A stretch of DNA of 45,750 nucleotides from IMG/VR virus record IMGVR_UViG_3300024262_000057, positions 1 to 45,750 of that record, one strand, 5' to 3'. Position numbers and translations under genes: made by a program. Every line of letters starts with the position of its first letter. The stretch's first letter is position 1. The stretch comes from a virus. The notes beneath the pieces are model-generated. The model was not told where the DNA came from. It searched no databases and saw nothing but the letters and a program-made list of their open reading frames with translations. Shown here piece by piece: positions 4,796-41,758 of this stretch.

Positions 4796-5115
4796 TTTAC
4801 TTCTTTACTTATATTATCTGCATTCAATCCATAGTGAACTATTTCCGGTTTTTTTTCTTTACTCTTTGTCCGATACGGACGCATTCCTTGATGCTGATTA
4901 ATCGCCGTCAACATCGCTCCCCTTATCCGCCGATACGCATACGTTATAAACTTAACCCCTCTCTTTGGATCATATCTTTCCCATGCCTCCATTAACCCAA
5001 TACACCCATAATCGTATAAATCATTTATATCCATTCCCTTCGGCAATCGAGAAGCAAAAGACTTTGTCATCTTTTTAACCTCCGGTAAATAATCAGCAGG
5101 GGAAGGTCTAATCAC
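4792..5115 (-). CDS. Minimal sigma factor, FliA/sigma-28-like region 2 only
   Basis: 107 residues from a GTG at 5115. An ATG at 5070 behind GGAGG is an alternative start giving 92 residues. Residues 8-73 align by eye with sigma-70 family region 2: DINDLYDYGCIGLMEAWERY (core-binding helix and 2.2), then KFITYAYRRIRGAMLTAIN (2.3-2.4). The closest familiar match is FliA, which has Y-D...F-x-T-Y-A-x-x-R-I-R-G-A-M-L. No region 3 helix-turn-helix or region 4 follows; the last 30 residues are basic and polar. I infer it binds host RNA polymerase and recognises a minus-10 element alone, as T4 gp55 does. It overlaps the gene upstream by eight bases and is coupled to the M15-like gene. Confidence 0.75.
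   Translation of the reverse strand: MIRPSPADYLPEVKKMTKSFASRLPKGMDINDLYDYGCIGLMEAWERYDPKRGVKFITYAYRRIRGAMLTAINQHQGMRPYRTKSKEKKPEIVHYGLNADNISKEVK
4811..4823 (-). promoter_or_regulatory. Candidate late promoter motif, copy 1
   Basis: On the minus strand this reads ATGCAGATAATAT, matching three other sites (25020-25032, 36754-36766, 41746-41758). It contains GCAGATAA, one base from the sigma-28 minus-10 consensus GCCGATAA. A start about seven bases downstream would place the mRNA 5' end just before the ribosome site of the M15-like gene. It lies inside the 3' end of the sigma gene, where it codes A-D-N-I. No shared minus-35 element is seen. Confidence 0.5.
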
Positions 5116-5674
5116 AAAGCTCGAATTGATCGGACTGATTGTTAGTTATCTCATCAAACTCAGCCTGAGTAATCTTCTGTGGATTTTTTACTAATATAGA
5201 TCGCTCCCACGTTTCGCCTTTACATACAGATCGTGCATCTATATTGACCAATACGGCAAAAGTAACTCCTACCGAATTTTCCTGAGCTTCACCCGTAGCA
5301 AGTATATAACGAGGGCCAGTAGTGTATGGTAGTTCCGGGTGGGGATCATTTATAAACTCTTGCCCTTTGTGATACGTCCGCTCCGGCTTTTTCTCCTTAA
5401 CTTCAGTGGCGTAGCCATTGTTTAGGAGCCAATTCCAATTACCAAATACATCCTCTCCAAGGCACCAACCATATACGACCTCCAAACTTGGCTCATCTAT
5501 CCATCCAAATTTCCTAACATACTTGTTAAATTCCCCACTACAGGGATTCGATTCAAATATACTCTGTCCGGATAAACTCTTTAGCTTCCTGTATGTTCTA
5601 TTCAGAGTTTTGTCTGTTATGGTGTCGGTTGCCATCTTGCCTGTGCCTATAGGATAATGCGGAAATGGAGGCAT
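5108..5674 (-). CDS. Unknown protein upstream of the phage sigma gene
   Basis: 188 residues from the ATG at 5674, or 175 from the ATG at 5635; both have only modest ribosome sites. No family recognised. It is soluble, with a Trp-rich centre (VVYGWCLGEDVFGNWNWLL) and a beta-rich C-terminal half. It overlaps the sigma gene (stop at 5108, sigma start at 5115), so expression of the two is probably linked. A regulatory partner of the sigma factor is possible, but nothing in the sequence shows it. Confidence 0.55.
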   Translation of the reverse strand: MPPFPHYPIGTGKMATDTITDKTLNRTYRKLKSLSGQSIFESNPCSGEFNKYVRKFGWIDEPSLEVVYGWCLGEDVFGNWNWLLNNGYATEVKEKKPERTYHKGQEFINDPHPELPYTTGPRYILATGEAQENSVGVTFAVLVNIDARSVCKGETWERSILVKNPQKITQAEFDEITNNQSDQFELCD

Positions 5675-5760
5675 ATATCCCCACAGAGAATCCGGCCATG
5701 TGCTTCTTGTATCTTAACCGTCTTCTTTGCCATCTTTCTATAAATCTCAGATACATCCAT
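5647..5760 (-). CDS. Small ORF of 37 residues with a strong ribosome site
   Basis: The ATG at 5760 is preceded by GGAGGAGACATT. The product starts MDVSEIYRKMAKKTVKIQEA and is basic. It overlaps the N-terminal part of the 188-residue gene in another frame. A longer ORF in a third frame (to 5598) uses the same DNA but lacks an equally placed ribosome site and ends in a His/Arg/Asn-rich tail that looks non-coding. No family recognised. Confidence 0.4.
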   Translation of the reverse strand: MDVSEIYRKMAKKTVKIQEAHGRILCGDICLHFRIIL

Positions 5761-5904
5761 AATGTCTCCTCCTTCCTGCCCCTATCCTCCTCCTTGCATA
5801 CTAAATATATACTTGTCAAACATTTTCTAAATTCCATACCCATATTTTTATATTTTTCATAGATAGGTCATAGGGAATGGAGAGACCTTATAAACGGTAA
5901 GAGA

Positions 5905-5940
5905 TACCCCCGGCCTCGCTCCCACGGGTGGTGGGGGTCT
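5905..5940. other. GC-rich inverted repeat in a 127-base intergenic stretch
   Basis: An ACCCCC/GGGGGT stem with a 21-base GC-rich interior lies between the HTH-zinc gene and the next leftward genes. It has no T-tract on either strand, so it is not a standard terminator. It could be an mRNA processing or attenuation structure. The rest of 5844-5970 is AT-rich; it holds an AGGTC/GACCT inverted repeat (about 5866-5891) but no clear promoter. Confidence 0.3.
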
Positions 5941-5970
5941 AGCTGGAGATCGGATCGGCGGTTTGCCTGG

Positions 5971-6309
5971 CTATGGCTTGCAATGTCGCTCAGTCATTAG
6001 TCTCTTGATGTGCCGATAGGTCGGGTCAGCATGGTTTAGTCTCCATGCTTTAGAGCATGTCAAAGAACAGAAGTGGTGTTGCCCTTGCCTAGCCTTGGCT
6101 TTGGAACGTATGAATGGATGCTCGCACTGATCACACTGTAATTGCACCTGATATCGGGATGTATCCACCTGCATGTCTCGCAGTATGTGCCATATAGCCT
6201 GGCGTGAGCGGTGATAGCTCCGTACTAACACGCTCATGGATACACCTGCCAAGTATGCCTGCTTTAAGCCCTGTCTCTCCTCGCCTGTGAGCCGTCTGAC
6301 TCTGTCCAT
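5971..6309 (-). CDS. HTH plus treble-clef zinc-finger DNA-binding protein
   Basis: 112 residues. The N-terminal half (residues 7-48) looks like a resolvase/homeodomain-type helix-turn-helix: LTGEERQGLKQAYLAGVSMS followed by a recognition-helix-like SRQAIWHILRDM. The second half has CDQC (residues 59-62) and CSLTC (81-85) in the C-x2-C/C-x3-C spacing of small phage zinc fingers related to HNH-type treble clefs, but without an HNH catalytic His-Asn-His. It is the first gene of the leftward operon that reaches the phage sigma factor. A transcription-regulator role is inferred. A consensus-like promoter and a strong GGGGG ribosome site precede it. Confidence 0.7.
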   Translation of the reverse strand: MDRVRRLTGEERQGLKQAYLAGVSMSVLVRSYHRSRQAIWHILRDMQVDTSRYQVQLQCDQCEHPFIRSKAKARQGQHHFCSLTCSKAWRLNHADPTYRHIKRLMTERHCKP

Positions 6310-6327
6310 AATTTACCCCCTGATATA

Positions 6328-6355
6328 ACTATACATATCTATTAAATAAAGTCAA
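6328..6355 (-). promoter_or_regulatory. Sigma-70 promoter for the leftward regulator operon
   Basis: Minus 35 TTGACT (6350-6355) and minus 10 TATAGT (6328-6333) are separated by 16 bases; each differs from consensus at one position. The ATG of the HTH-zinc gene follows about 20 bases downstream. An inverted repeat GTCAA-gttaa-TTGAC (6351-6365) overlaps the minus 35 box and is a candidate operator. Confidence 0.7.
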
Positions 6356-7333: not shown

Positions 7334-7350
7334 AAAGAAAGAAGGCCATA

Positions 7351-7515: not shown

Positions 7516-7516
7516 G

Positions 7517-9397: not shown

Positions 9398-10615
9398 CTA
9401 TTCCTCCTCACTTAATATTTGGTTATAAACTTCTTCAAACTTTCCCGGCCAGAATCGCAAATCTCTAGTGATATTAGGTGGCGGGCAGATTTTGAGCGCC
9501 TTGTCCCGGATCGGATCTGCCTCCATAGCCGAGGTGTCTATATGCAGGTAATCGCCATATGCCTGGACTTGTCCTTTGTGCAACTGCAGCCATGCGAACA
9601 GTTGTCTGCTCACAGCCTTGCCTTTGTCCCCTTCTTGCAAATCGGTTACTTGCAGGATCTCGTCTTCCCACCTTCGAGCGGATAACCACCCCTGAGGCAT
9701 TTTGGGTATCCTATCCTTCGCCAAAATAGCCTTCCGCTCTATATTATACCTTTTTGCACCTGCAATAATCTTTTCAAATAAACCATTATCAATCTGCAAT
9801 CTCAGCCATACATCGCTGGCTTCCGCCATTCCACGCTTATCGCCAAAGGCATCCCAGAATTTAAGGAACATTTTTAATTGATCGCCTTTTAAAAATTTCC
9901 CTTTCCTAGTCCGATAGGAATCGGACATAATAGAGGTATTAGTATTAATACTTCTTTTATCTTTACTCTTATCGTTCTTACTATATAGTACGTTCTTTAT
10001 CTTTTCTTTCTTGTTTGTGTTCACTTTTTGCTTGTTTGTTGTTCGTTTTTTGCTTGTTTGTTGTTCATTTGTTGTTCGTTCCGGATTTCCCCGGGTTGGT
10101 AACCCAGCCAATTTATTATAGTTATTATAGAATATCTGTTGTTTATTTGTTGTTCGTTTTTTGCTTGTTTGTTGTTCATTTTTTGCTTGTTTGTTGTTCA
10201 TCTTTTGTTCATCTGTTGGTCGTTTGTTCATCTGTTGTTCATTCTGTTGTTCATTCCGGATTTCCCCGGGTTGGTAACCCAGCCAATTTATTATAGTTAT
10301 TATAGAATATCTGTTGTTCATTTCGATGTTCAAATTTCCCATTTTTTCTAAAATACGCAACCATCTCCACACAGTGAGTGGTGATTTATGTTTTTTTCCT
10401 TTCCTGGGGTAGTAATCTCGGTGGAGGGAAAATCTTCCGGTAATGAATTGTCCGGGCAATACTTTTACAGGGTTAATAATTCCCTGGATTGGCACCCATA
10501 TTTCTTTATGACTAGCGTTTAATAAACACAATGTCCAGAGCCTCCATAATTCCTCCCTTTGAAACACTTGCGAATCTATACTTTTCCTGTAGAGCTTTAT
10601 ATACCCACGCTCCAT
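9398..10615 (-). CDS. Replication initiator / replisome organiser-like protein with internal origin
   Basis: 405 residues from the ATG at 10615 (GAGGTAAGG upstream; an in-frame start at 10642 is less likely). Residues 1-115 look like the winged-helix N-terminal domain of phage replisome organisers (GYIKLYRKSIDSQVF, LTVWRWLRILEKMGNL, IITIINWLGYQ). A low-complexity Asn/Gln/Lys/Thr linker covers about residues 115-230. The C-terminal domain (about 240-405) starts LKMFLKFWDAFGDKRG. The linker DNA carries iterons, AT-rich tracts and a repeat read in two frames, the layout of lambda O and similar proteins whose genes contain the origin. It would bind the origin and recruit the host helicase loader or helicase. 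Confidence 0.7.
   Translation of the reverse strand: MERGYIKLYRKSIDSQVFQREELWRLWTLCLLNASHKEIWVPIQGIINPVKVLPGQFITGRFSLHRDYYPRKGKKHKSPLTVWRWLRILEKMGNLNIEMNNRYSIITIINWLGYQPGEIRNEQQNEQQMNKRPTDEQKMNNKQAKNEQQTSKKRTTNKQQIFYNNYNKLAGLPTRGNPERTTNEQQTSKKRTTNKQKVNTNKKEKIKNVLYSKNDKSKDKRSINTNTSIMSDSYRTRKGKFLKGDQLKMFLKFWDAFGDKRGMAEASDVWLRLQIDNGLFEKIIAGAKRYNIERKAILAKDRIPKMPQGWLSARRWEDEILQVTDLQEGDKGKAVSRQLFAWLQLHKGQVQAYGDYLHIDTSAMEADPIRDKALKICPPPNITRDLRFWPGKFEEVYNQILSEEE
10079..10143. repeat. 65-bp perfect direct repeat, copy A
   Basis: Identical to 10254-10318. The offset is 175 bases, not a multiple of three, so the same DNA is read in two frames of one protein: here it gives NNYNKLAGLPTRGNPERTTN in the linker. 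Confidence 0.95.
10254..10318. repeat. 65-bp perfect direct repeat, copy B
   Basis: Identical to 10079-10143. Read here as SIITIINWLGYQPGEIRNEQ, which completes the winged-helix domain. This is probably the original copy; the other is an out-of-frame duplicate within the tolerant linker. Confidence 0.95.
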
Positions 10616-10649
10616 CCTTACCTCAAAAAGCAAAAAGGGCATCCAAAGA

Positions 10650-17184: not shown

Positions 17185-17213
17185 AGTATACAAACCCCTC
17201 CAATTTTTGTCAA
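17185..17213 (-). promoter_or_regulatory. Consensus sigma-70 early promoter
   Basis: Minus 35 TTGACA (17208-17213, perfect) and minus 10 TATACT (17185-17190, one mismatch) with an ideal 17-base spacer. The predicted start is about 12 bases before the ribbon-helix-helix ATG. Upstream lie imperfect direct repeats (TATATAGTAGGT about 17222 and TATATGTAGTAGGT about 17252), candidate operator sites. It drives the leftward early operon down to 8.3 kb. Confidence 0.88.
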
Positions 17214-25003: not shown

Positions 25004-25019
25004 ATCTTACTCCTTACTT

Positions 25020-25032: not shown

Positions 25033-25078
25033 CCGGCCATCAGGCCAGCTATGTTTACCGGTATGTAAGTTAAGTTCA

Positions 25079-27145: not shown

Positions 27146-27170
27146 TTATATCCTTACATCCCCGTTGGAA

Positions 27171-28405: not shown

Positions 28406-28406
28406 T

Positions 28407-31061: not shown

Positions 31062-32854
31062 TGCGCCTCCTTAAATCTCCTTATCTTCTCCGGAATATCT
31101 ATCGGGATGGGGTATGTTTTCGTGAGGATTCCCATCTTTTCAGCCTTATTATAATATTTTAAAGTTTGCTCAAAATCGCCTTTTTCCTGGTAGATAGATC
31201 CTATCAGATAAAGCAATATGCCATCCTTGGGGTAGGCTTTTAGCCCGACTTTTAATTCCTCGATAGCTTTATCCCGTCCGCCCCTATTCACCATTCTATG
31301 GCAGTAGCAATCGGCCACCAAATGAAGGCTGTACTTTGCCCATTCGCTTGGGCCTTTACTCTGACATTCTCTGACATTCTTAAGGCAACTATCGTAATCC
31401 TCAAGCTGGAGATAACTTGCCGCCAGATTATAATAATCAGTGCTTGAGCCATTGCCGTTATTTACTAATTTCGATAATATTTTAAAATTCCGTGCTGCTT
31501 TTCTCTTCCTATCCGTTATTGTAAAATAGCCGAAATGCTCTATGGGAATATTGGCTTTGTGTACTTTAAGTCTCGCCCGTACCATCGACGGAGTGAGTTG
31601 TTCGTGTATCTTGCCTTCCCATAGGACATCCGTCCTGTTAGGAAAGATACGCATCTGCCACGCATTAGATGGAGATCTTTCCTCAAATCGGTTCACTAAC
31701 TTCAACATAACGCCCATATCCCTGCTGAGGGATAGTTGCGGTTTAAGATTCATAAGTCGCTTTAAAGAGTCGGGTGGCATCCTATCATCCGCATCGAGCC
31801 ATAGGAGATAATCTGATTGGGCTATATCTTTTGCTTTATTTCTCGCGCCCGCAAAATCATCTCTCCATTGGTATCGTCTCACTTTGGCTCCGTAGGACTT
31901 GGCTATTTGAATTGTCTTATCGGTTGAACCTGTATCTACCACTACGATCTCATCTATAACATCACTCTGCAGATCACTAAGTAAGTGCCCTATCCTGGCC
32001 TCTTCATTCTTTGCGATTATAGTAACTCCGATTGTTGCCAGCAATTTGGGGTCTTTTGGGAAATCAGGCCAATTACACCCAAATAATTCCATTGTCGGAG
32101 GGACATTGCCCTTGCCATAGAAATTCTCTAATTTGGCTTTTAATATGTTTTGACTTTCCTCTGAACGCTCATTTGAGTTGCGTATCGAAGCAATAGAGCG
32201 TGTTATATCGGGTTTATGGTAGATAAAGACATCGGTGGCAATAATAAGTTTGTATCCGTTAAGTCGTAGTCTAAATGAATATTCCAGATCTTCGTTGCCA
32301 AAGAAGAAATCGCTGTCCAGCATACCAATATGATCTATAACATCCCGCCTTACCAACAGACAGAATCCAATCAGGAGTTTGGTCTCCAGGCTTTTCCCTT
32401 TATTCTGCCTATATATCGTCCTTGCAAATGTATCGGAGTCTATCTCGCCTAGATTCTTCTTAGTGTAATGGTGATCGAATCTTTGATACCCTCCTACATA
32501 ATTAGAAATCGGCCCCACAGCGCCTACATCGTCTTTGAAGTGCGCCAGCATACGCTTCAGCCAGTTCTTTGTAACCACCGTATCGGGATTAAGCAAAAGC
32601 ACATATTCGCCCTTAGCCGCTTTTATTCCCCGATTACATCCCTTGGAGAACCCTTCGTTTTCATCATTCAAAATTACTTGAGCATCGAGGCTTGTATGTT
32701 GCAAATATTCCCGTGTTCCGTCGGTAGATGCATTATCGACTATGATAACTTCATAAGGAGTATGCGTATAATCCTTAATGCTGCTGAGGCATCTAGGCAA
32801 TTCAAAGATGGAATTATATGTCAATATAACAATGCTTACTTTAGGTTTCTTCAT
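31037..32854 (-). CDS. Double GT2-type glycosyltransferase with TPR tail
   Basis: 605 residues from the ATG at 32854 (MKKPKVSIVILTYNS), chosen because the zinc-ribbon gene upstream ends within it. The first GT-A domain (1-270) has VIIVDNASTDGTREYL and LLLNPDTVV. The second (about 270-460) has ATIGVTIIAKNEEARIG, VVVDTGSTDKTIQIAKSYGA and LLWLDADDRMP, the aspartate metal site. The rest has TPR-like helices (YNLAASYLQLEDYDSCLKNV, DGILLYLIGSIYQEKGDFEQ). It sits inside the virion structural operon. Glycosylation of capsid/tail proteins or of a host surface glycan is inferred. Confidence 0.8.
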   Translation of the reverse strand: MKKPKVSIVILTYNSIFELPRCLSSIKDYTHTPYEVIIVDNASTDGTREYLQHTSLDAQVILNDENEGFSKGCNRGIKAAKGEYVLLLNPDTVVTKNWLKRMLAHFKDDVGAVGPISNYVGGYQRFDHHYTKKNLGEIDSDTFARTIYRQNKGKSLETKLLIGFCLLVRRDVIDHIGMLDSDFFFGNEDLEYSFRLRLNGYKLIIATDVFIYHKPDITRSIASIRNSNERSEESQNILKAKLENFYGKGNVPPTMELFGCNWPDFPKDPKLLATIGVTIIAKNEEARIGHLLSDLQSDVIDEIVVVDTGSTDKTIQIAKSYGAKVRRYQWRDDFAGARNKAKDIAQSDYLLWLDADDRMPPDSLKRLMNLKPQLSLSRDMGVMLKLVNRFEERSPSNAWQMRIFPNRTDVLWEGKIHEQLTPSMVRARLKVHKANIPIEHFGYFTITDRKRKAARNFKILSKLVNNGNGSSTDYYNLAASYLQLEDYDSCLKNVRECQSKGPSEWAKYSLHLVADCYCHRMVNRGGRDKAIEELKVGLKAYPKDGILLYLIGSIYQEKGDFEQTLKYYNKAEKMGILTKTYPIPIDIPEKIRRFKEAQCQRPLRP

Positions 32855-33017
32855 CCAGGCACCTTTTGCATACATAAAATCCGTCTTGATAAATGAGTTC
32901 ATCTTTGGGAAACTGAAAACCACACCTGTCGCATACGATTGTCGATGTAGTTACCGTGCTTGACTCGCCGCCAAGCTCACTTATCTGAGTTATGCTCGCA
33001 AGATATATTTCACGCAT
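32841..33017 (-). CDS. Small zinc-ribbon protein upstream of the double glycosyltransferase
   Basis: 58 residues. CDRC (35-38 approx.) and CKRC (53-56 approx.) in TIVCDRCGFQFPKDELIYQD and FYVCKRCLDE. It starts with an ATG at 33017 and its stop codon lies inside the first codons of the glycosyltransferase gene, so the two are coupled. It is too short for most ORF filters and shares no frame with neighbours. Role unknown; adaptor or RNA-binding function is possible. Confidence 0.7.
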   Translation of the reverse strand: MREIYLASITQISELGGESSTVTTSTIVCDRCGFQFPKDELIYQDGFYVCKRCLDEET

Positions 33018-33021
33018 ATTG

Positions 33022-33049
33022 TAAATAAAGAGGGGCGCAAGGCCCCTCT
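33022..33049 (-). terminator. Intrinsic terminator after the decoration-like gene
   Basis: Minus strand AGAGGGGC/GCCCCTCT stem with a five-base loop, then TTATTTA. It would end or reduce transcripts from the capsid genes. Downstream genes could rely on read-through. Confidence 0.6.
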
Positions 33050-33052
33050 AAA

Positions 33053-33451
33053 TTATGTAGTTCCAATTGCCATCCAACCGCAAGTGATGGTCTCATCCGA
33101 AGCCGCCGCCGCTGTTTCATCCCATACTTTCAGTATGATGCTACTAACGGTTGTCCCGTCAATCGCCGCCGTAACAGCAGCGGATACAGTGGTAGAATCC
33201 TCAGCCATCGAAGCAACCACCACATTTACCGTTGTAAGTCCCGTTGCAATAGTGAGTATGCCAACAACATCGGCAGTATTCATGGTCATAAGTTTTCCGG
33301 CAGTAATAGCAGTAATAGCAGTTCCATCCGTATTTGCGCCATCGGTAACATTCAGTTCTAGGCCACTTGCCGTAATTGTAACTTCGCTTCCAAGCGCCCC
33401 AATTCCTAATGTCTCAGGACTAAATTTTGTTACCCGTGTCCAATCAGCCAT
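33053..33451 (-). CDS. Small beta-rich head protein, possible decoration protein
   Basis: 132 residues, Thr/Ala/Val/Ile-rich with almost no Arg/Lys or Trp, and regular beta alternation (LTIATGLTTVNVVVASMAED, TTVSSIILKVWDE). Placed right after the major capsid gene and before a terminator. Capsid decoration or stabilisation is inferred by composition and place. Ribosome site AAGGGGGGG. Confidence 0.6.
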   Translation of the reverse strand: MADWTRVTKFSPETLGIGALGSEVTITASGLELNVTDGANTDGTAITAITAGKLMTMNTADVVGILTIATGLTTVNVVVASMAEDSTTVSAAVTAAIDGTTVSSIILKVWDETAAAASDETITCGWMAIGTT

Positions 33452-33462
33452 GATTCCCCCCC

Positions 33463-34368
33463 TTATGCGCCAGCATCCTTAAAGATATTCATCGGATCTG
33501 CAACTTCTATACTGTTCCTAAGCGAAACCTTGAAGAGTGCATCACCTGTGTCGAAGTCTCCTTCTCTTGCAAATACTGCCGGCTCCCTTGTGAAGTAAAT
33601 CGGGCCTCTTGCCGGGTCTTTCTCGCCGATGTAATAACGTGCATTGGTATCCGTGACATAAGGCGAAGTATAATAGGTCAGCTTTGGCCTAGCATTTCTG
33701 AACTCGTTGATCGCCCTATTGGCAGTCGTAGGGTTATCAGTAGAATTAAACAGTTTTGCCAGATCCCACTCAAGAGCGGAATTAGCAACAACTATTCTAC
33801 AGCTCCCCTTCCTGTTGATGTACTTGCCTCTATGATCCTGAAGAGATTCGTACTGAGCAATATCGGTTTCCAGAGAGTCCAGGCTTATTGCAGCCGCCGT
33901 GCATAGATTGTCATAGGTTGAACCATCCAGTCTGACATGCTCGTCATAAAAGACAACCTGGCCGTCAGCCGCTGTCTTGGTTATGCTGTTGAGCATATCG
34001 AATGCAATTATATTGATTGTCTCAGCCGCAGATTTACCTAGTTCGGCCGCAATTCCTTCCATAACACCATAGAGATCGTCCGCAATGCATTCGGCGGTAA
34101 TCCGCACTCCCGATGCCCATGTTTTGTGTACCCACTTTTTGGGTGGCCCCTGGATACGGGCATCATAAGTGATCCCTGTTCCTTCAGGCTTTTCCGTCAA
34201 AGCTCCAAGCCCGCTCATGTATCCGATTTCTTCGTAAGCAGCCTTAGATTTTTTAACCGTGAAAAGAGTTCTCCACGGTTCCCCATACCGTTTGAAATTA
34301 CTCACAGCGATCATAAAGAGGCCAGGAGTAATCACATGATTAAATCTTGATCTAGTTTCAGTAGCCAT
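33463..34368 (-). CDS. Major capsid protein (HK97-fold)
   Basis: 301 residues. Starts TETRSRFNHVITPGLFMIAV. The central block WVHKTWASGVRITAECIADD, followed by DLYGVMEGIAAELGKSAAET, is a typical spine-helix region of HK97-fold major capsid proteins, and the C-terminal RNSIEVADPMNIFKDAGA is consistent. Preceded by a small head protein and scaffold gene and followed by a decoration-like gene, the normal head module order. The length is average for a small-genome capsid subunit. Confidence 0.85.
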   Translation of the reverse strand: MATETRSRFNHVITPGLFMIAVSNFKRYGEPWRTLFTVKKSKAAYEEIGYMSGLGALTEKPEGTGITYDARIQGPPKKWVHKTWASGVRITAECIADDLYGVMEGIAAELGKSAAETINIIAFDMLNSITKTAADGQVVFYDEHVRLDGSTYDNLCTAAAISLDSLETDIAQYESLQDHRGKYINRKGSCRIVVANSALEWDLAKLFNSTDNPTTANRAINEFRNARPKLTYYTSPYVTDTNARYYIGEKDPARGPIYFTREPAVFAREGDFDTGDALFKVSLRNSIEVADPMNIFKDAGA

Positions 34369-34379
34369 TTATAGTCTCC

Positions 34380-34916
34380 TTATACGCCCTGAGTGATTGT
34401 GCTGCCGCTAAGTGAATGCTCATGGATAACCACAACTACGTCCTGGTTAGCTCCCCAAGCATTGCCCTGTGTTTCAAGCAAGCCTAAAATCTTTAAGTTA
34501 GCATCCCCCGTCGATACTGTTGTTATGTAAGATGCTGATATACCCGTATAGGTGCTTGCATCGCCCAAAACAAGATCCGCTGTTCCGCCGACATCGACAG
34601 AACTGAGCGCACCAGAACATTTAACTGCGTATCTCTGTTGCGGGTCTGTAATAACCAACGCCTTATAGGTATCATTACTCGGTGTACCGCCAGGATAATA
34701 ACTCACGGGTATTCCGTCAGCATCTACAACGCCAATACAAACACCAGCATTATCTTCATTACCTGCCACAGCGAGAGCAACACCGTTAGATGCAACAATC
34801 TCTACCACATCGCCGTAACCCATTATGCTGGTAGTCGGACTGATATTGAACATCTCTGGAGGTCTAACTTCCTTTCCTATGGGCTTCAACCCATATTTTC
34901 CAGATGAATTAGCCAT
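34380..34916 (-). CDS. Head decoration / stabilisation-type protein
   Basis: 178 residues, beta-rich (VVEIVASNGVALAVAGNEDN, YKALVITDPQQRYAVKCSG). Gly and Val content and lack of helices resemble capsid-binding decoration proteins. It lies just upstream of the major capsid gene. Ribosome site AAGGAGAAGTAGAA. Confidence 0.6.
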   Translation of the reverse strand: MANSSGKYGLKPIGKEVRPPEMFNISPTTSIMGYGDVVEIVASNGVALAVAGNEDNAGVCIGVVDADGIPVSYYPGGTPSNDTYKALVITDPQQRYAVKCSGALSSVDVGGTADLVLGDASTYTGISASYITTVSTGDANLKILGLLETQGNAWGANQDVVVVIHEHSLSGSTITQGV

Positions 34917-34938
34917 TTCTACTTCTCCTTATCTTTTT

Positions 34939-35529
34939 TTATTCGGCAAAATCTACTTCGCTCCCTGGCTCACCTGGGGGGATATTGAGAGCTTCGGTAC
35001 TCCCCGTGTGGTCTGTCACAGCCTGTGTTTGCTGGCGTCCTATTACCTCATCGCCTTCACCTGATTTGTAAAAGCGAGAATCTTCTTTTTTCTTATCCTC
35101 AACACTTCTGAGCAGGCGTTTGTAATCCATGCCCTGTTGTTTCATCATCTTATTCTTAACATATCTGGGCATAAACAAAAGCACATGCCGTGTATGTCCG
35201 TGTCGTTCTACGGCCCCCGATGGGGCAAACTCGATCTCTGGTATCCAGGAACATTTTACTCTGCTGCATATTTGCCATCCAGCCGCCTGATACTTTCTAA
35301 GCATTCTGTCTGTGGCTTCGCAGAAGACAAAGGCGTGATACTTTTTATCCTCTTTGCAGGATTCGGGAAGTTCAAACATAGAATAAAATCTTTCATGTTT
35401 AAGTACGGCTCCCAATTTAGGAAAGACCATCTCTTCCTGTTCTTGCAACAGGCGTTGTATTGTTTCATCTCCGCTATTCAACATATGGTGAACAACTTGC
35501 GGGATTTCTTGTTTTATATTTTCAGCCAT
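34939..35529 (-). CDS. Unknown protein in the head module
   Basis: 196 residues. The N-terminal third is helical and acidic (GDETIQRLLQEQEEMVFPKL), the middle contains aromatic/basic residues and a His-rich turn (AVERHGHTRHVLLFMPRYVK), the tail is disordered and acidic. It overlaps the scaffold gene by eight bases and precedes the decoration-type gene. No family recognised. A head assembly role is inferred from position. Confidence 0.55.
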   Translation of the reverse strand: MAENIKQEIPQVVHHMLNSGDETIQRLLQEQEEMVFPKLGAVLKHERFYSMFELPESCKEDKKYHAFVFCEATDRMLRKYQAAGWQICSRVKCSWIPEIEFAPSGAVERHGHTRHVLLFMPRYVKNKMMKQQGMDYKRLLRSVEDKKKEDSRFYKSGEGDEVIGRQQTQAVTDHTGSTEALNIPPGEPGSEVDFAE

Positions 35530-36478
35530 TTTGTTCTCCTCCTAAATGTGCAAACTTCGCATATTCTTTAGGGTTATATCCTTGCTCCTTGCACCAGGCT
35601 CTTTGGGTAGGCGTTAAATTATCCGCACCGCCCTGTTGCGCCCCTTGACTGTGCGCAACTCCTTGGCCTAAAATCCGCTCTTGCCTGTTCCCTTCAATCT
35701 GAGTGTGATTAGCCATTGTTTTGAGCTTTTCATTTTCGAGAAGAGTATTGGCAAGTTTTACATGAGTGTAAAACATCTCAGGATTATGTTTCAGCATATA
35801 GTCGATTTCATCCTGGGTATTATTTTCAAACAACATCGCTTGACTCTTTTTGAATAATGCGCTGTCCTTACTCGTGATATCAGGGAACTCAGTATTTAGT
35901 TTGTTGTTTGTCTTTGTTATCCTCTCCTGGAAATCTGCGACTTCTTCCGAGTCGGGAAGAACATCTACCGGTTTGGCCGCTATCTTATCGTCCTCTGATG
36001 CTGGCGGAGTTACGGCATCTACAATATCTTCCCTGAGCACGCGGTCTCGCTCCGGTTCGTAATTATCAGAACCAGCCTCTTTCAATCCTTCCAGATAAAT
36101 GCGGTTCTTCTCTCGCTTTTCTGCCAGGTCGGCCTTTTGTATGTCTTTTTTCCGTTGCTCCTCCATGAAGGCAAGCCTTCGTTGTGTCTCCGCCAGGTTT
36201 GCATCAGATCTAACTCCTTTTTCCTTAAGCCTGCCAATTTCTACTCTCTGTGCCGCAAATGCCCTGCTCGCAGGCGTACTAGCCGGAGACTCTTCCGGTT
36301 TCTTTTCAGATTCCTTTTCCTTGGGTTCCGCCTTCCCCTCTGTTGCTGTCTCTGTCTTTTCTTCCTTTCCAGGGAGCTTGCCTTCTTGACTGAGGGTGTC
36401 AGATAAAGATTCGTCGGTTTCTTCTGTCTCAAAGAAATTATCGACTTTTTCTTCTACGCTCACTTCTTCGATAGCCAT
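35522..36478 (-). CDS. Scaffolding protein
   Basis: 318 residues. Highly charged and disordered N-terminal half (Lys/Glu/Pro/Ser), a coiled-coil region (SRAFAAQRVEIGRLKEKGVR, then KREKNRIYLEGLKEAGSD), and a helical C-terminal capsid-binding-like region. Such composition, with position between portal and capsid genes, is the hallmark of phage scaffolds that direct procapsid assembly and then leave. Strong ribosome site AAGGAGTAAAAGACA. Confidence 0.75.
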   Translation of the reverse strand: MAIEEVSVEEKVDNFFETEETDESLSDTLSQEGKLPGKEEKTETATEGKAEPKEKESEKKPEESPASTPASRAFAAQRVEIGRLKEKGVRSDANLAETQRRLAFMEEQRKKDIQKADLAEKREKNRIYLEGLKEAGSDNYEPERDRVLREDIVDAVTPPASEDDKIAAKPVDVLPDSEEVADFQERITKTNNKLNTEFPDITSKDSALFKKSQAMLFENNTQDEIDYMLKHNPEMFYTHVKLANTLLENEKLKTMANHTQIEGNRQERILGQGVAHSQGAQQGGADNLTPTQRAWCKEQGYNPKEYAKFAHLGGEQNG

Positions 36479-36531
36479 TGTCTTTTACTCCTTTCCCAAT
36501 CTCACGTTTAAAGTCTGTGGCAGACTACAAT

Positions 36532-36564
36532 AAAAAAAGCCCTCTCGGTTTCCCAAGAAGGCTT
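36532..36564 (-). terminator. Strong intrinsic terminator upstream of the scaffold gene
   Basis: Minus strand: 12-bp stem AAGCCTTCTTGG/CCGAGAGGGCTT with a GAAA tetraloop, then seven T residues. It lies between a 32-codon ORF and the scaffold gene. It would define the 3' end of the packaging-portal-GroES transcript or of a short transcript from motif 3. An AGTCTG/CAGACT inverted repeat (36512-36526) lies just beyond it. Confidence 0.88.
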
Positions 36565-36627
36565 GTTGCGTGCTCGGCTTAAATTTGATGCGTTAAAGAG
36601 GCACCAATATGTTATATTATCTTTTCC

Positions 36628-36726
36628 CTATATAATTTCCCCCTTCTGTATCTTCTCCAGCAAAGACACTAATTGTTTCAGGCTTCTAAGTAAAGCCTTA
36701 ATTAATTGGTGCACCTCACTGCTCAT
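36628..36726 (-). CDS. Small helical ORF of 32 residues
   Basis: Starts with an ATG that overlaps the end of the 100-residue gene by 11 bases; GGAGAAAGG lies upstream. The product SSEVHQLIKALLRSLKQLVS is amphipathic and helical. Motif 3 lies 28 bases upstream of its ATG and a strong terminator follows, so it may form its own short transcription unit. It could also be a chance ORF. Confidence 0.4.
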   Translation of the reverse strand: MSSEVHQLIKALLRSLKQLVSLLEKIQKGEII

Positions 36727-37018
36727 GTATAAACACCTTTCTCCATATACTTAATATTATCTGCATCGACTTAGTTTTTATACTCTCCCTCTTCTCTTTC
36801 GACACATATAGTTCCGGTAACCGCAAGATAGATTCATTTTCAGCGATAACAGCATTCAGAGCGTGAATAGTAAATAGATTTTCCTCCAATGTAATGCTAT
36901 CCTTGCATTCCATCATGGCAAAATTATGCAGCATCCGCACATGATTCTCAAGCCGAGCCTGTAAATCCTTCTGATACGCAACAAAATCAGGATTAAGCAT
37001 TAAATCTATCTTAGCCAT
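36716..37018 (-). CDS. Unknown helical protein after GroES
   Basis: 100 residues, all-helical (FVAYQKDLQARLENHVRMLH, LEENLFTIHALNAVIAENES) with a basic C-terminal end. Its start overlaps the GroES stop. No family recognised. A head assembly or portal-related role is inferred from place. Its last third contains motif 3 in a reading frame different from that of motif copy 1. Confidence 0.6.
   Translation of the reverse strand: MAKIDLMLNPDFVAYQKDLQARLENHVRMLHNFAMMECKDSITLEENLFTIHALNAVIAENESILRLPELYVSKEKRESIKTKSMQIILSIWRKVFIHEQ
36754..36766 (-). promoter_or_regulatory. Candidate late promoter motif, copy 3
   Basis: Minus strand ATGCAGATAATAT then TAAGTATATGGAG. It contains GCAGATAA. It lies in the coding part of the 100-residue gene, where it is read M-Q-I-I-L. 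The next features are the 32-residue ORF, the strong terminator and the scaffold gene. Confidence 0.45.
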
Positions 37019-37317
37019 TAGTCCTCCACCACCGTGCCAAGAATATCCCCCTCGGCAATAACCGTATAGGTTTCCCTTTCAACCAGTATATCCGTGCCCG
37101 CATATCTGGATACAAATACATACTCGCCTGCCTTTATATCGACAGGCCTTACCTTACCTAGCGCCTTGTTAAATATCCCTGGGCCTACCGCAAGGACTTT
37201 GCATACCTGTTGTGTGTCCTTTGCAATGTCCGGTATAATAATTCCGCCGGATGTTGCTTCCTCTTCCTCGATTCGCTTAATTAATACATAATTTCCTTTT
37301 GGCATAAACTTTTTCAT
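37018..37317 (-). CDS. groES: Phage-encoded GroES-like co-chaperonin
   Basis: 99 residues, the normal length for GroES (about 97). The pattern fits throughout: an N-terminal strand (GNYVLIKRIEEEEATSGG), a mobile-loop region ending IIIPDIAKD, CKVLAVGPGIFNKALGKVRP, then VDIKAGEYVFVSRYAGTDI and a C-terminal EGDILGTVVED. It would cap host GroEL and help fold large capsid or portal subunits, as T4 gp31 does. It lies between the portal and head genes. No GroEL gene is present, so the host supplies the partner. Confidence 0.85.
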   Translation of the reverse strand: MKKFMPKGNYVLIKRIEEEEATSGGIIIPDIAKDTQQVCKVLAVGPGIFNKALGKVRPVDIKAGEYVFVSRYAGTDILVERETYTVIAEGDILGTVVED

Positions 37318-37340
37318 ATATCCTCTCCTTCCCTAAAGGA

Positions 37341-39488
37341 TTATCCCGTCTGTGTTCCAGGGCTTAAATATGCCTCTACCCAATCTTTAGCCATCTTCTT
37401 TCTTAAGTTAATAATAGCTTCCTTTATATCGTCATCCGACATAAGCTGTGGGTTCATCTGCTTTATCTTCTCTGCCTCTGCCATATCCATGAGTTTGCGT
37501 TTCTGCAAGGTATCAAACACACCCTTAAGCATCTCAAGTTGTTTTCTCGGCTCCATCATCTGCTCTTTCATATCGGACTTCATAATGCTGTCGGATACTT
37601 GTCCCTGCATTTGCTGCTGTTTCTGCTGCTGCTGTTTCTGCTGCATATATTGTTGTATGACCTGTGTAATTTCCGGATTCTGGCTCACAGCCTGGAGGAT
37701 AATCAGGAAAGCAGGATTGATAAATTTCTCGGGATCTTTTCTCTGGTAAGTATGCATCAATTCTTTAAACATCTCCACTTGGTTTACGAAAGGCATCTGT
37801 CCTACAAGTTGCATAAGCTCGACTTGTTCCCTTCTGTCTATCATCTCGTTATGTGCGCTATCGGAAATACAGATAGAGAAATCAAAATCGCCTTGTAATG
37901 CCGTAACATCGACTTGCTGAAAATCTTTCCCGCCCGGAAGTTGCATTATTGCATCGACAGGCATAAACCAGGCATACAAAAGCATATCTTGCTTTATGAT
38001 CTCTTCCAACTGCTCTTTAAGAGGTTTGGCCTGGTAATTGTGTTTTAACTGTCCTTCCTGCAAGATCATCTTCATACCTGCAGCTGTGCCCGCTCCTTGC
38101 CCCATCTGAATATCTTGAACACCGGAAGTATAAGAACTTACTGCGATAAGCCTTTCAAGAAATGCCGTTATGAGATTGATATATTCTACGAAAACCTGTG
38201 CTGTTACGCCAAGCTGAGGAAATAGAATGCTTCTCGGGTCGCCGATAACGGGATTAGCTCCTCCTGGCTGTATTTCCAGCTCATTGGGCAGTCCCGTTAC
38301 CCCTTCATTGTAGAAGAAGAACGGCGCAATCTGGATAGTACCGCTATCGATCATCTGGTTGAGCAAATCATTGATCGCCTTGGCGTGATGTCTGACTTTG
38401 TGAGGAATACCCGTTCCAAATTGTTTATCCCCATTAGAGAATAGCAGAAGACGTTTTATCGGTTTCACATTGTTATAATAAACCTCCCGCATGTACTGTT
38501 TCCGTATAATTGTGTGGCTATCCTTTGTTATGGTTATTATACACCAATCGGGATCATCACCTTCTTTAAGAGCAAAGTAAGGGATATATCCCTCGATGCA
38601 TTCTATCTTCTTTCTTGTCCGTTCGTCCTGTATGCCCAGTCTGGCAGTATCGGCAGCCAGACTATCAGAACCCCGCTGCTCTGTCTCTTCATCGAGTAAC
38701 TTTTCGGTGATATTGATATATGGCCCTTTGCCCCCGGCCTTGGTGCTCTGCTCCTTTAACTCATCATACGAGATCCATATGTCCCGCAATGTCGGGCTTC
38801 TGTCCCACTCAGGCGTTTCGTCGGGCCCATAAACCTTTTCCATTGTTACAAGTTCATTGACTACCCTGAATACTTTTTCCTCTTTATCGGATACTTCATC
38901 AACGAGCTTTTGCTCTGGCTCTATCCCTGCCCTCGTAATAGCTTGAAGTTGCACTTCGTCCGTTACTCTCTCGCCTGTAGTAGGATCTATGAGAACCGTT
39001 CCGATAAATCGTTCTTTCTGTTTAACCAGTTTCTCTTCATAATATGGGAATATATATTCTGTGCCGTCTATCAATAATTCATGTATGTACTTTGGGATAT
39101 GTTTTTGCCATTTTATGTTATGCATCAACGCCCATTCAACAAAGCCTTCCACTCTCGGCGCTAACTCTACGGATTCCTTTTTGTTGGCTTTTATTTCTAC
39201 TATATCCCTTTCTTTGCCGATCAAGGCATTGACTATCCGAGGTTCGATATTATCAAGCACAATGGCGGAAACCATCAAACTATAATTGGCACAGTCCGGC
39301 CATGGGAAATCCTTTGGCTTTCTGTAGCCATCGTAATCTTCCCTGCTCTCTTTTGCCTCTTTCATTATTTTCTCTCTGTAATCAGAGTCATGGTATTCAT
39401 CGTAAAGATCGACCAAATAGCTGACTATTGGGTCTTCATCGTTACCTAGACGATCCCTTGTCGTTTCCGTTGCGTATTCTATTGCCAT
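37341..39488 (-). CDS. Portal protein, P22-like
   Basis: 715 residues, in the size range of P22-type portals. The N-terminal block SREDYDGYRKPKDFPWPDCA, followed by SLMVSAIVLDNIEPRIVNAL, and the later HHAKAINDLLNQMIDSGTIQ are typical of short-tailed phage portals. The C-terminal quarter is coiled-coil with a long Gln-rich stretch (MQQKQQQQKQQQMQGQ), likely part of the barrel/tunnel. It forms the dodecameric ring through which DNA enters and leaves. Located directly after TerL with a three-base gap. Confidence 0.85.
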   Translation of the reverse strand: MAIEYATETTRDRLGNDEDPIVSYLVDLYDEYHDSDYREKIMKEAKESREDYDGYRKPKDFPWPDCANYSLMVSAIVLDNIEPRIVNALIGKERDIVEIKANKKESVELAPRVEGFVEWALMHNIKWQKHIPKYIHELLIDGTEYIFPYYEEKLVKQKERFIGTVLIDPTTGERVTDEVQLQAITRAGIEPEQKLVDEVSDKEEKVFRVVNELVTMEKVYGPDETPEWDRSPTLRDIWISYDELKEQSTKAGGKGPYINITEKLLDEETEQRGSDSLAADTARLGIQDERTRKKIECIEGYIPYFALKEGDDPDWCIITITKDSHTIIRKQYMREVYYNNVKPIKRLLLFSNGDKQFGTGIPHKVRHHAKAINDLLNQMIDSGTIQIAPFFFYNEGVTGLPNELEIQPGGANPVIGDPRSILFPQLGVTAQVFVEYINLITAFLERLIAVSSYTSGVQDIQMGQGAGTAAGMKMILQEGQLKHNYQAKPLKEQLEEIIKQDMLLYAWFMPVDAIMQLPGGKDFQQVDVTALQGDFDFSICISDSAHNEMIDRREQVELMQLVGQMPFVNQVEMFKELMHTYQRKDPEKFINPAFLIILQAVSQNPEITQVIQQYMQQKQQQQKQQQMQGQVSDSIMKSDMKEQMMEPRKQLEMLKGVFDTLQKRKLMDMAEAEKIKQMNPQLMSDDDIKEAIINLRKKMAKDWVEAYLSPGTQTG

Positions 39489-39491
39489 TCA

Positions 39492-40820
39492 TTATCCTCC
39501 ATATCCACAGGCTCGGCGATTTGTTTTAGTTTTCTTATGTTTAGAGCGAGACTGTAGCATCTGTATTCCCTGCGCCAGACTTTGCATTCCGTCTGCTCCG
39601 TGGCAAGCCCAATCGTGCCTTGGTTTATCCATGAATGTCTGCATTTTCTCGTTAAATTCTTTTCTGTAGTTTTCAAGACAGGATATGCCAAGTTCACATT
39701 TTTTGGCATCAAACCAAAACCTCTGAAAGAGATTCCGCACCATCTCTATCCCGTCTTCCTTTGCTTCTACTCTGGGACAAACAATAAAGTCAAGCCCAAG
39801 TTCTCTTGCCGTCTGCCTCCGTGTCTTACCTGTAGACAATGACCGCACTTCTATATCATGTGGGCCAAAGTGCATCCCATAAACGTATTCTTTATTCTGC
39901 AAATATTTTGCGTAATGCTTAAGACTTTCCCCGCTGTTTTCATAGTATTCTATAATATGAATCTCTTGTCCAACCAACTGAAAGAACCAGATAGAGGTAC
40001 TATCATCCATACCAAGATCCCATGCCGTGTGAACCGATGTCGCGGGATCGTAAGGCACATTGCAGATTCTTTTCTGGCGTTTAACTTCTATTATCCACTG
40101 CCCATAGTATGCGCCCTGTACTTCTATCAAATCCCAACTACCATCCCGCCATGCACGTTTAAGATCCCCGGGCAAACCGTCAAGGAATCTGATATAACCA
40201 GGATCTATATTCATGAGGTAGGGATTATCATCCACTTTTGCGGGAATAAATACCCGTGTCCTTTTTGTGATAGGATCTTTATATGGCTGTCCCGGAGTTG
40301 CCACATCAACAAATCGACTCTTTACCCACTTATGCCCTGGCCCTCCTGGGTTCGTAGTGGCAAAAACCTGTGGCGGTAATCCAACCACTGTGCTTCTGCA
40401 AGATGATATTAATTTTAAATAACTCTCCTGTATGGGGATCTGCGTTAATTCTTCTATAAGTATGCGCTGGTATTCATGCCCCTGGTATTTCTCATAAGCA
40501 TTTTCGTCCTTCAAGTGCCCTGTTTTAATATAGGCGCCGCTTGGAAACTTAAAGATGGGGGGATTCCCCACTGTTGTTACCCCTGTTCCCTCATACATCC
40601 GTCTCGCCCTGATTACCCAATCCGTTAAATCGTCAGCATTACGCCTGATTACCAGTTCGGCAAGTTTGGGGTTGTCAGTATCATAAAGTAACCAACCGAA
40701 GCCTGCATCCGTTTTACCTCCACCCCTTGCGCCCCCGTACATGACTTCAAACTCATCTCTGATCAGGGCTTCACTTTGTTTTGGCGTTGGCACCCAATGC
40801 GGCTTTGCTTCCTGTTCCAT
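39492..40820 (-). CDS. terL: Terminase large subunit
   Basis: 442 residues. ATPase Walker A YGGARGGGKT (residues 28-37) and Walker B region RILIEELTQI (about 116-125). The nuclease domain has AWDLGMDDSTSIWFF (about 267) and CHGADGMQSLAQ (about 407), the RNase H-like acidic positions. It pumps and cuts concatemeric DNA. Start overlaps the small-subunit gene by 50 bases. Circular permutation of the assembly is compatible with headful packaging, but the type cannot be decided from sequence alone. Confidence 0.92.
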   Translation of the reverse strand: MEQEAKPHWVPTPKQSEALIRDEFEVMYGGARGGGKTDAGFGWLLYDTDNPKLAELVIRRNADDLTDWVIRARRMYEGTGVTTVGNPPIFKFPSGAYIKTGHLKDENAYEKYQGHEYQRILIEELTQIPIQESYLKLISSCRSTVVGLPPQVFATTNPGGPGHKWVKSRFVDVATPGQPYKDPITKRTRVFIPAKVDDNPYLMNIDPGYIRFLDGLPGDLKRAWRDGSWDLIEVQGAYYGQWIIEVKRQKRICNVPYDPATSVHTAWDLGMDDSTSIWFFQLVGQEIHIIEYYENSGESLKHYAKYLQNKEYVYGMHFGPHDIEVRSLSTGKTRRQTARELGLDFIVCPRVEAKEDGIEMVRNLFQRFWFDAKKCELGISCLENYRKEFNEKMQTFMDKPRHDWACHGADGMQSLAQGIQMLQSRSKHKKTKTNRRACGYGG

Positions 40821-41214
40821 CTCTTTTCCTATCTATCTTCCTCTCCGGTAAAACTACCACGCCTATGGTCTTGCCGTTTTTGCCGCTAATGGATACATCC
40901 TTTGCATCTCTCCATCCGCTACAATTCTTAAGGGCAAAGTAGACTGTTTTGGCCTCATATTCCTTTGCAAGTCCCAATGTCGCTAATTTGGCTTCTTGTG
41001 CGGCTTTGGCCTCTTCGTAAAGCTTTCCACATGTTTCAGGCCATTTTTTAGCCCATTCTCGCAAATTCTTTACATAATAACCCCGGTCTTTAGTAAATCT
41101 AATGAAGAATATCTGTTTGGGTTTCTCGAAGTCGTGAAGCCACTCAATCAGCTTCTCGATCTCCTTTTTTGCCTTTGGTTCCGTCCATATTATTGGTGGT
41201 CCATGTCTTGCCAT
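40771..41214 (-). CDS. terS: Terminase small subunit-like protein
   Basis: 147 residues. The helical core (KAKKEIEKLIEWLHDFEKPK, then LREWAKKWPETCGKLYEEAK) and the C-terminal strand (GKTIGVVVLPERK) match the pattern of phage DNA-packaging small subunits that recognise the pac site. It ends in a Lys/Arg/Ala-rich tail that overlaps the TerL gene. Directly upstream of TerL, the normal place. Confidence 0.75.
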   Translation of the reverse strand: MARHGPPIIWTEPKAKKEIEKLIEWLHDFEKPKQIFFIRFTKDRGYYVKNLREWAKKWPETCGKLYEEAKAAQEAKLATLGLAKEYEAKTVYFALKNCSGWRDAKDVSISGKNGKTIGVVVLPERKIDRKRDGTGSKAALGANAKTK

Positions 41215-41224
41215 TATTAAACTC

Positions 41225-41551
41225 CTAAATCATATATGCAATCAGCGCTGATCCTCCTGTGCCTGAGAGCTTTATTGTTATTCCATTAGTTGCGGTACGA
41301 TATGCCTGGGTTTCCCCGCCCATTAATTCGTCGCCTTTCACCAGCACATACGACAATTCAGTCCCTGTTACGGTTGTCGCATTGTCATATACAGTCAATG
41401 TGGCGGTATTAGTCCCATCAGTATATGCGATGGCGCTCATCAGAATGCCTGGTTTAGCAAGGACTACCGTTCCCGACTGTCCAACAGTCATTAATCCCGA
41501 TGATGTTGTTAAGGGAAGCTCGCTTGTTACCGGTCTATGTGCAGTTGCCAT
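41225..41551 (-). CDS. Small beta-rich structural protein
   Basis: 108 residues, Thr/Gly/Ala/Val-rich with alternating strands (GQSGTVVLAKPGILMSAIAY, TATLTVYDNATTVTGTELSY). Composition fits virion surface or decoration proteins. It lies between the small basic protein and TerS. Ribosome site AAGGAGATAGATT. Confidence 0.6.
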   Translation of the reverse strand: MATAHRPVTSELPLTTSSGLMTVGQSGTVVLAKPGILMSAIAYTDGTNTATLTVYDNATTVTGTELSYVLVKGDELMGGETQAYRTATNGITIKLSGTGGSALIAYMI

Positions 41552-41554
41552 AAT

Positions 41555-41728
41555 CTATCTCCTTTTCTTCTTTTTTTTCTTTGGCAAACCCTTTTCCTTT
41601 GTTGCTGCAAACTCATGGAGTTGGGTCTTTGTCATCTTCGTTACGGCCCGATTACGCTTATATACCTTTTCAGGATGATGTTTAGCGAGGCCCATTAATT
41701 TGCGTTGCTTTTTACTTTTAGCTGGCAT
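41555..41728 (-). CDS. Small basic protein, DUF3008-like
   Basis: 57 residues: PAKSKKQRKLMGLAKHHPEK, and a C-terminal ELHEF-type segment (TQLHEFAATKEKGLPK) ending in KKKKKKRR. This is the shape of the DUF3008 family of small phage and prophage proteins. Strong ribosome site AGAGGAGACAATC. Highly basic, so nucleic-acid binding is likely. It is the first gene after motif 4 and heads the packaging operon. It falls below usual ORF length limits. Confidence 0.7.
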   Translation of the reverse strand: MPAKSKKQRKLMGLAKHHPEKVYKRNRAVTKMTKTQLHEFAATKEKGLPKKKKKKRR

Positions 41729-41745
41729 GATTGTCTCCTCTTATA

Positions 41746-41758
41746 ATATTATCCGTAT
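41746..41758 (-). promoter_or_regulatory. Candidate late promoter motif, copy 4
   Basis: Minus strand ATACGGATAATAT then TATAAGAGGAG. It contains ACGGATAA, two bases from GCCGATAA. It covers the stop codon of the last glycosyltransferase gene and lies directly before the packaging-head operon. Predicted mRNA 5' end falls just before the ribosome site of the DUF3008-like gene. Confidence 0.5.

Follow-up and report, generated by a model that had tools for sequence, protein, structure and literature searches.

How are the late genes of the virus in IMG/VR record IMGVR_UViG_3300024262_000057 switched on? We analysed positions 1 to 45,750 of this record (45,750 nt, hereafter the window). Copies of a short motif, ATRCRGATAATAT, stand before blocks of late genes, and a small open reading frame (ORF) encodes a sigma factor in which only region 2 is recognised. 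An initial annotation, made from the letters of the DNA alone, took the motif for the promoter of this sigma. On the evidence of the sequence we consider it likely that the four sites are late promoters with a -10 element only, read by the phage-encoded, region-2-only sigma.

Four copies of one motif before late gene blocks

A pattern search of the whole record gave exactly four matches to ATRCRGATAATAT, all on the minus strand and shortly 5' of start codons, and just where the initial annotation had placed them. There were 0 matches on the plus strand and 0 for the reversed pattern. Copy A (ATGCAGATAATAT, 4811-4823) is contained in the 3' end of the sigma gene and precedes the lysis block. 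Copy B (ATGCGGATAATAT, 25020-25032) is intergenic and stands before 25003. Copy C (ATGCAGATAATAT, 36754-36766) lies in ORF 36716-37018 and stands before a short ORF (at 36726) and before the capsid block, and copy D (ATACGGATAATAT, 41746-41758) covers the stop codon of ORF 41749-42345 and precedes the packaging block. Downstream of each copy there is A/T-rich DNA, then a ribosome site, then the ATG, so that the sites are indeed just 5' of ribosome sites; the coordinate distance from the motif end to the first ATG base (4795, 25003, 36726 and 41728) is 16, 17, 28 and 18. Copies A, C and D overlap their upstream genes in three registers, as had been claimed: A-D-N-I at the end of the sigma gene, M-Q-I-I in ORF 36716-37018 and G-stop at the end of ORF 41749-42345. 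The remaining copy, B, lies between genes. Transcription is predicted to start near 4806 (A), 25015 (B), 36749 (C) and 41741 (D).

The record ends overlap by 12 bases, and once this overlap is removed a 578 amino acid (aa) ORF on the minus strand spans the junction (1-552 and 44570-45738). Because this ORF reads through the record ends, a circular or circularly permuted genome is probable. The four sites split the late genes of the circle into four blocks. Packaging and portal-like genes follow copy D (41746), capsid genes follow copy C (36754), the block after copy B (25020) terminates in an 1801-aa ORF, and lysis and further late genes follow copy A (4811), across the circle junction. All four sites thus open late blocks, as the initial annotation had it, although a terminator parts copy C from the scaffold/capsid genes. 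The replication block contains zero exact copies of the motif.

Statistical support for the motif

The bare statement that there are four similar 13-mers is weak. On the minus strand, 515 13-mer centres have at least four sites at one mismatch or less, against 20-87 in 18 random genomes, and many of the 40 centres listed come from a repeat tract at 10.0-10.3 kb. It is position that makes the difference. We took 57 upstream regions of 60 nt, with starts chosen by hand from the ORF list, and no 13-mer other than ATGCGGATAATAT comes within one mismatch in four of them. Under four null models, random upstream sets held such a 13-mer in 0, 2, 4 and 1 of 200 cases, and in a repeat of this test in 1 of 60. 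Sets shifted 60-300 nt into the genes never held one (0 of 6). With words of 12 the upstream regions give three centres, and two of these are this motif (random mean 0.25); word lengths 14 and 15 gave zero centres in the upstream regions, and word length 11 gave 23 against 4.6 in random sets, the six shown being A-rich. The core GATAATAT is enriched in the window (8 against 3.7 expected), and none of 100 shuffles gets to 8.

A position-weight scan of both strands had been proposed as a check. The four sites do rank top (18.8-20.5), but the next match, 923-935 at 16.05, lies inside a gene; the other matches among the 25 listed score 12.98 or less. When each site was left out in turn, the number of chance matches expected at its score was 0.03 for three of the sites.

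We also searched IMG/VR for the motif followed by GGAG. This gave 55 stretches, by our own arithmetic near chance for a collection of that size. The 48 that were searched as whole records are used as a background set and are not taken for relatives. One copy is present in 45 of them, two copies in 3 and more in none, and the remaining 7 of the 55 loci have one copy each. At the rate of the 48 records (1.98 Mb), 0.07 extra copies are expected per 45.75 kb, against 3 seen in the window (Poisson P of at least 3, 5e-5). A region 2 match is present in 3 of the 48 (2 above cut-off), each with one motif copy.

The phage sigma factor

The sigma gene, ORF 4792-5115 on the minus strand, encodes 107 aa with sigma-70 region 2 only (Pfam Sigma70_r2, E 4.8e-16, residues 8-76), and this is the one place in the record that Sigma70_r2 matches. 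The ORF also matches PHROG sigma factors and NCBIfam FliA_WhiG (2.3e-21, residues 8-90), and its best solved relatives by sequence are FliA proteins; it stays below the full-length score of TIGR02479 (76.6 bits, cut-off 189.6). Only 31 residues lie C-terminal of the Sigma70_r2 match. The region 4 models Sigma70_r4 (PF04545) and Sigma70_r4_2 (PF08281) match nowhere in the record, in agreement with the initial annotation, although a divergent region 4 could escape these models. Because the gene overlaps an open endolysin-like gene, the sigma does not seem to be the N-terminal remnant of a longer, disrupted one.

An AlphaFold2 model, built from 17 sequences, has a mean predicted local distance difference test (pLDDT) score of 82.3, with at least 90 for 71 residues and about 50 past residue 80. 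The model is confident to about residue 75 and fits sigma domain 2 of solved structures. The top Foldseek match is a Pseudomonas sigma-28 (E 1.6e-3, probability 1.00), and no match reaches 1e-3. The 50 matches shown by a second aligner have Z 11.1-12.5, values that helical bundles can reach as well; almost all of these matches are sigma proteins or complexes that contain a sigma. The tail is HYGLNADNISKEVK, with a short low-confidence helix at 102-105 in the model; judged by eye, no C-terminal hydrophobic/acidic sliding-clamp epitope was recognised in it.

Motif and sigma fit together in their likeness to sigma-28, the consensus of which is given as TAAAGTTT-n11-GCCGATAA in the available text of PMC2859248. 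By our own count, copies A to D, with GCAGATAA, GCGGATAA, GCAGATAA and ACGGATAA, agree with the sigma-28 -10 GCCGATAA at 7, 7, 7 and 6 of 8 positions, so the core is as near to it as the initial annotation had said. The sigma-28 -35 TAAAGTTT, looked for at spacers of 10-12, scores at best 2, 2, 3 and 4 of 8, and a sigma-70 -35 upstream of the sites at best 2, 3, 3 and 3 of 6, in both cases as at random positions. A search for a common upstream element found none (shared 6-mers, 1 observed and 0.9 expected). The sites share no -35, as had been noticed, and promoters of this type are to be expected for a sigma that lacks region 4.

Predicted course of late transcription

The sites, their placement, the sigma domain, and the finding of no region 4 and no shared -35 are established; binding to the core enzyme, specificity, the start points and the timing are inferred. 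In the early phase of infection, host sigma-70 RNA polymerase would start at 17213-17185, before the replication block, and probably also at 6355-6328, before the operon that leads to the sigma gene. The 107-aa protein would bind the host core enzyme via region 2 and melt the ATRCRGATAATAT element, with transcription starting about seven bases downstream. The outcome would be four late operons with very short leaders, for packaging/portal, for scaffold/capsid, for the block ending in the 1801-aa protein, and for lysis with further genes across the junction.

We are more tentative, with a leaning towards doubt, about a further reading. In this, a sigma stripped to region 2 and a short tail, and closest to sigmas of the FliA/WhiG type, would run the whole late programme of a phage of about 46 kb from the four -10-only sites as a minimal stand-alone promoter-recognition factor, one that arose independently of T4 gp55. 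It is rated somewhat lower in view of five further phage sigmas in which region 4 is not recognised, as described below.

Relatives of the phage and of its sigma

Megablast of positions 25001-45000 in phages gave no match. Scans of viral_contigs gave 3 loci for the sigma, 25 for the large terminase, and 0 each for the portal-like protein, the capsid protein and the 666-aa late protein 28407-30407; these scans miss distant kin because an exact short peptide is required. At E 0.001, Sigma70_r2 was found in 0 of the 25 terminase records, which are possibly fragments, and in 3 of the 28 records overall, these three being the ones found by the sigma itself. The shorter GATAATATWA is present in 10 of the 28. 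Fourteen records were compared with the window proteins by tblastn, two of them over 20 kb only (G011 and G014). Thirteen are terminase relatives, the terminase being seen in 12 of these within the stretch compared, and each has at most one other window protein in common, namely a methyltransferase (G004), the helicase loader (G007 and G008) or a glycosyltransferase (G005). The terminase relatives cannot test the motif. In records L020-L029 the terminase match spans only residues 6-242 or 9-242, which suggests a split or interrupted terminase gene.

A tblastn search in phages gave 934 records for the terminase, 87 for the sigma (E 0.01), 2 for the portal-like protein and 20 for the capsid protein. 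Co-occurrence of sigma and motif in related phages, a check proposed in the initial annotation, was assessed on distant capsid relatives. Of the 20 capsid records, thirteen were searched as whole records; all are named phages whose capsid or connector is related, and MW202601 is among them. Sigma70_r2 was found in none of the 13. At one mismatch, three have one motif copy and none has more; the window has five. This is consistent with motif and sigma going together and is no positive test of it.

By alignment, 44 IMG/VR loci are related to the sigma. In 43 of these the protein is longer (159-350 aa, from the length of the ORF), and the other, L104 (94 aa), is a frameshifted copy, so that the 107-aa protein is the shortest intact one of the 45 compared. 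Ten of the shortest intact relatives were checked for region 4 with Pfam. Five of them, L112, L113, L118, L120 and L121 (161, 161, 159, 165 and 167 aa), match region 2 but give no hit to region 4 at E 0.1. Phage sigmas without a recognised region 4 are thus not rare, and the idea that the window sigma is the sole region-2-only one was wrong. These five share Sigma70_r2 and the lack of a Pfam region 4 match with the window sigma; unlike it they are longer, and they are distant (27-33% identity over the matched stretch) and come from records without the motif. A further entry, a region 2 fragment of 123 aa, is found in a viral structure library. The single match of the sigma in genome_contigs, in a metagenome-assembled genome labelled Deltaproteobacteria, is a longer, distant sigma. 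No publication on this phage appeared in the literature listings examined.

Comparison with known systems

The late box of phage T4 is TATAAATA, which differs from the window motif. T4 gp55 also differs from the window sigma in that it has a C-terminal sliding-clamp epitope and works with gp33. According to the available part of PMC2988020, the sigma likeness of gp55 is confined to domain 2, and its promoters have an 8-bp box at -10 and no conservation at -35. As far as this description goes, the window sigma is alike in resembling sigma in region 2 alone, as are its sites in having an element at the -10 position and no -35.

For phage phiEco32, the text available in PMC8948821 describes a sigma, gp36, without region 4 homology and with single-element promoters, tAATGTAtA, at which transcription starts 6-8 bp downstream; six sites were identified experimentally before middle and late genes (PMC8948821). 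Judged by this account, the window would have the same arrangement of a phage sigma without region 4 and a single element before late genes, with no -35. The motif is another one, and the window sigma, of 107 aa, is nearest to FliA/WhiG.

With sigma-28 (FliA/WhiG) the window sigma shares its nearest region 2, and the -10 GCCGATAA is one base off GCRGATAA. Unlike sigma-28 it lacks regions 3 and 4, and the -35 TAAAGTTT was not found at the sites. In Bacillus subtilis SigO-RsoA, as outlined in the accessible portion of PMC8103513, regions 4 and 2 are split over two proteins, RsoA being the region 2 half. On this description the window sigma is like RsoA a stand-alone region 2 protein, but unlike in SigO-RsoA no separate region 4 protein was detected in the record with PF04545 and PF08281.

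The special point of the window system is its very small FliA-like sigma; the arrangement is of an already known kind. If our reading is true, there would be a further lineage besides T4 and phiEco32 in which a sigma without region 4 runs the late programme, possibly as a compact promoter system of its own. This bears on how little of a sigma factor suffices to choose promoters.

Points against and alternative explanations

Several observations weigh against the four sites as promoters of the phage sigma. With up to two mismatches there are 11 matches against 8.1 expected, and for CRGATAATAT at one mismatch 10 against 10.5, that is, no enrichment in either case. Sets of random same-strand windows held a 13-mer of the kind described above in 15 of 200 draws, a figure inflated where windows overlap and one site can be counted twice. 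Copy D (41746) is the weakest site and alone only moderately unusual, with 0.55 chance matches expected at its score when it is left out. A 12 of 13 match at 923-935 lies inside ORF 553-1716, and this decoy has to be inactive or unimportant. A strong terminator parts copy C from the scaffold/capsid genes. GATAAT agrees with the sigma-70 -10 at 5 of 6 positions. In FliA, D81 and R84 are specificity determinants; in the alignment they pair with T70 and N73 of the phage sigma, and kinship with FliA is thus not enough by itself to predict this motif. None of the scans and records searched yielded a relative that carries both the sigma and the motif. The motif is also absent, at up to one mismatch, from the five records with other region-4-less sigmas; in records this distant, its absence speaks only against a widely shared specificity.

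A prediction of the same kind has failed before. In phage 7-11, four repeats of about 12 bp were predicted as promoters with high significance, according to the available text of PMC4331800, and primer extension gave a different, bipartite motif, according to that of PMC8948821. As the excerpts describe it, the 7-11 sigma (SaPh711_gp47) is a phage sigma with a handful of late promoters, like ours, and unlike ours it has region 4 and bipartite promoters. If our reading is false, the window would be a second caution after phage 7-11 on inferring promoters from low-copy motifs.

It should be noted that four-member 13-mer groups are common genome-wide, and the motif could be a chance set of four similar words in an A+T-rich genome, picked by eye. 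The lack of enrichment at two mismatches and the 15 of 200 sets of same-strand windows fit this. Random upstream sets seldom hold such a word (0-4 of 200), however, the leave-one-out expectation is 0.03 at three sites, and the sites stand before four late blocks on one strand; we regard chance as the least probable of the explanations considered. Placement also speaks to a second alternative, a conserved A/U-rich leader in the mRNA, directly ahead of the ribosome site, through which the first gene of each block would be translated more strongly. Three of the four copies end 16-18 bases before the start codon with a purine-rich ribosome site close behind, but the fourth ends at 28, the conserved part has CRG and GATAATAT and is not plain A/U, and none of the 25 best matches belongs to the capsid gene, for which strong translation is assumed. 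Such an mRNA element is very unlikely, if a little less so than chance.

Promoters of the host are a better candidate, and still an improbable one. The sites would be read by the host's own sigma, either sigma-70 via GATAAT or host FliA, and the phage sigma would do something else. By our own counts GATAAT agrees with TATAAT in 5 of 6 bases, and at three sites GCRGATAA agrees with the sigma-28 -10 in 7 of 8. At none of the four sites, however, does a -35 of either type score better than at random positions, the TG is displaced by one base from where an extended -10 would have it, the early block has an ordinary sigma-70-type site instead, and a dedicated sigma is present in the phage. Somewhat ahead of this, and unlikely all the same, is a variant in which the phage sigma is one half of a pair, as RsoA is with SigO, and another phage or host protein makes the upstream contact. 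Region 2 alone is the RsoA half in Bacillus, to go by the available text of PMC8103513, and a small protein with a weak helix-turn-helix match is encoded upstream of the sigma gene on the same strand (5971-6309). An upstream element common to the sites was not found, though, PF04545 and PF08281 are without a match in the record, and the best PHROG match of the small protein is an HNH endonuclease. The likelihood that we give to this variant overlaps with that of the phage sigma acting at -10-only late promoters; the two are not exclusive.

Putative early promoters, terminator and small protein

A sigma-70-type promoter, TTGACA-17-TATACT (11 of 12), opens the early/replication block at 17185-17213 on the minus strand and is the only 11 of 12 match in the scans made. 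A sigma-70-like promoter, TTGACT-16-TATAGT (10 of 12), is found at 6328-6355 on the minus strand, upstream of the sigma gene and 19 bases before ORF 5971-6309. Taken as a class, sigma-70-like matches show no clear enrichment (53 against 42.6 expected, sd 6.7), and the two promoters therefore rest on position. Nothing is concluded from a structure model of the small protein 5971-6309, which has low confidence.

The terminator after copy C is intrinsic, with a 12-pair stem and a T run (36537-36564, minus strand), and lies between copy C and ORF 35522-36478. The 219-nt RNA over it (36530-36748, minus strand) is more structured than shuffles (z -3.3). Based on terminator and structured RNA, copy C may make a short structured leader RNA, and capsid expression would then need read-through; an attenuating leader or a small RNA is possible. 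Rfam gave nothing at the curated threshold in the window, and two weak leader matches over the structured stretch (E 0.14 and 0.89) are not believed. A further GATAATAT, followed by AAC, is found at 36614-36621 on the minus strand, upstream of ORF 35522-36478 but ahead of the terminator, and is possibly a weak fifth site.

Gene content of the blocks

Scaffold, internal virion and tail are labels that come from the initial annotation or from gene position. In the lysis block, the first gene after copy A is endolysin-like of the M15 type (4364-4795, minus strand; PHROG endolysin 2e-4, M15 matches under the Pfam cut-off). It is followed by an Amidase_3 gene (3741-4349, 6e-22) and a weak holin match (2949-3272, Phage_holin_6_1 0.0029, under cut-off). 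The first gene after copy B is 24617-25003 on the minus strand, and family searches gave no useful match for the 1801-aa ORF 17278-22683, which the initial annotation labelled an internal virion protein. In the same way, ORF 35522-36478, scaffold by label and position, gave no useful family match. The block after copy C encodes the major capsid protein (33463-34368, minus strand; PHROG major head protein 1e-15). After copy D follow the large terminase (39492-40820, minus strand; PHROG terminase large subunit 3.2e-39) and then a portal-like connector (37341-39488, phrog_332 connector 1.9e-7).

A phage-encoded Cpn10 (37018-37317, minus strand; GroES-like, Pfam 1.2e-22) adjoins the portal-like gene. 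Directly before the packaging operon lies a gene cluster (41749-43980, minus strand) in which a glycosyltransferase-like gene (41749-42345) and a radical SAM/SPASM gene (43054-43980) flank ORF 42342-43076. The late proteins 25079-27145 and 28407-30407, both on the minus strand, have the stretch ESAKTFGTAAATFGSGYTFGSHGSIQYIM in common.

The genes of the replication block encode a RecE-like exonuclease, RecT, a DnaD-like loader, a methyltransferase and a resolvase. The DnaD-like helicase loader gene (9398-10642) contains an Asn/Gln/Lys/Thr-rich repeat tract at 10000-10320 on the minus strand.

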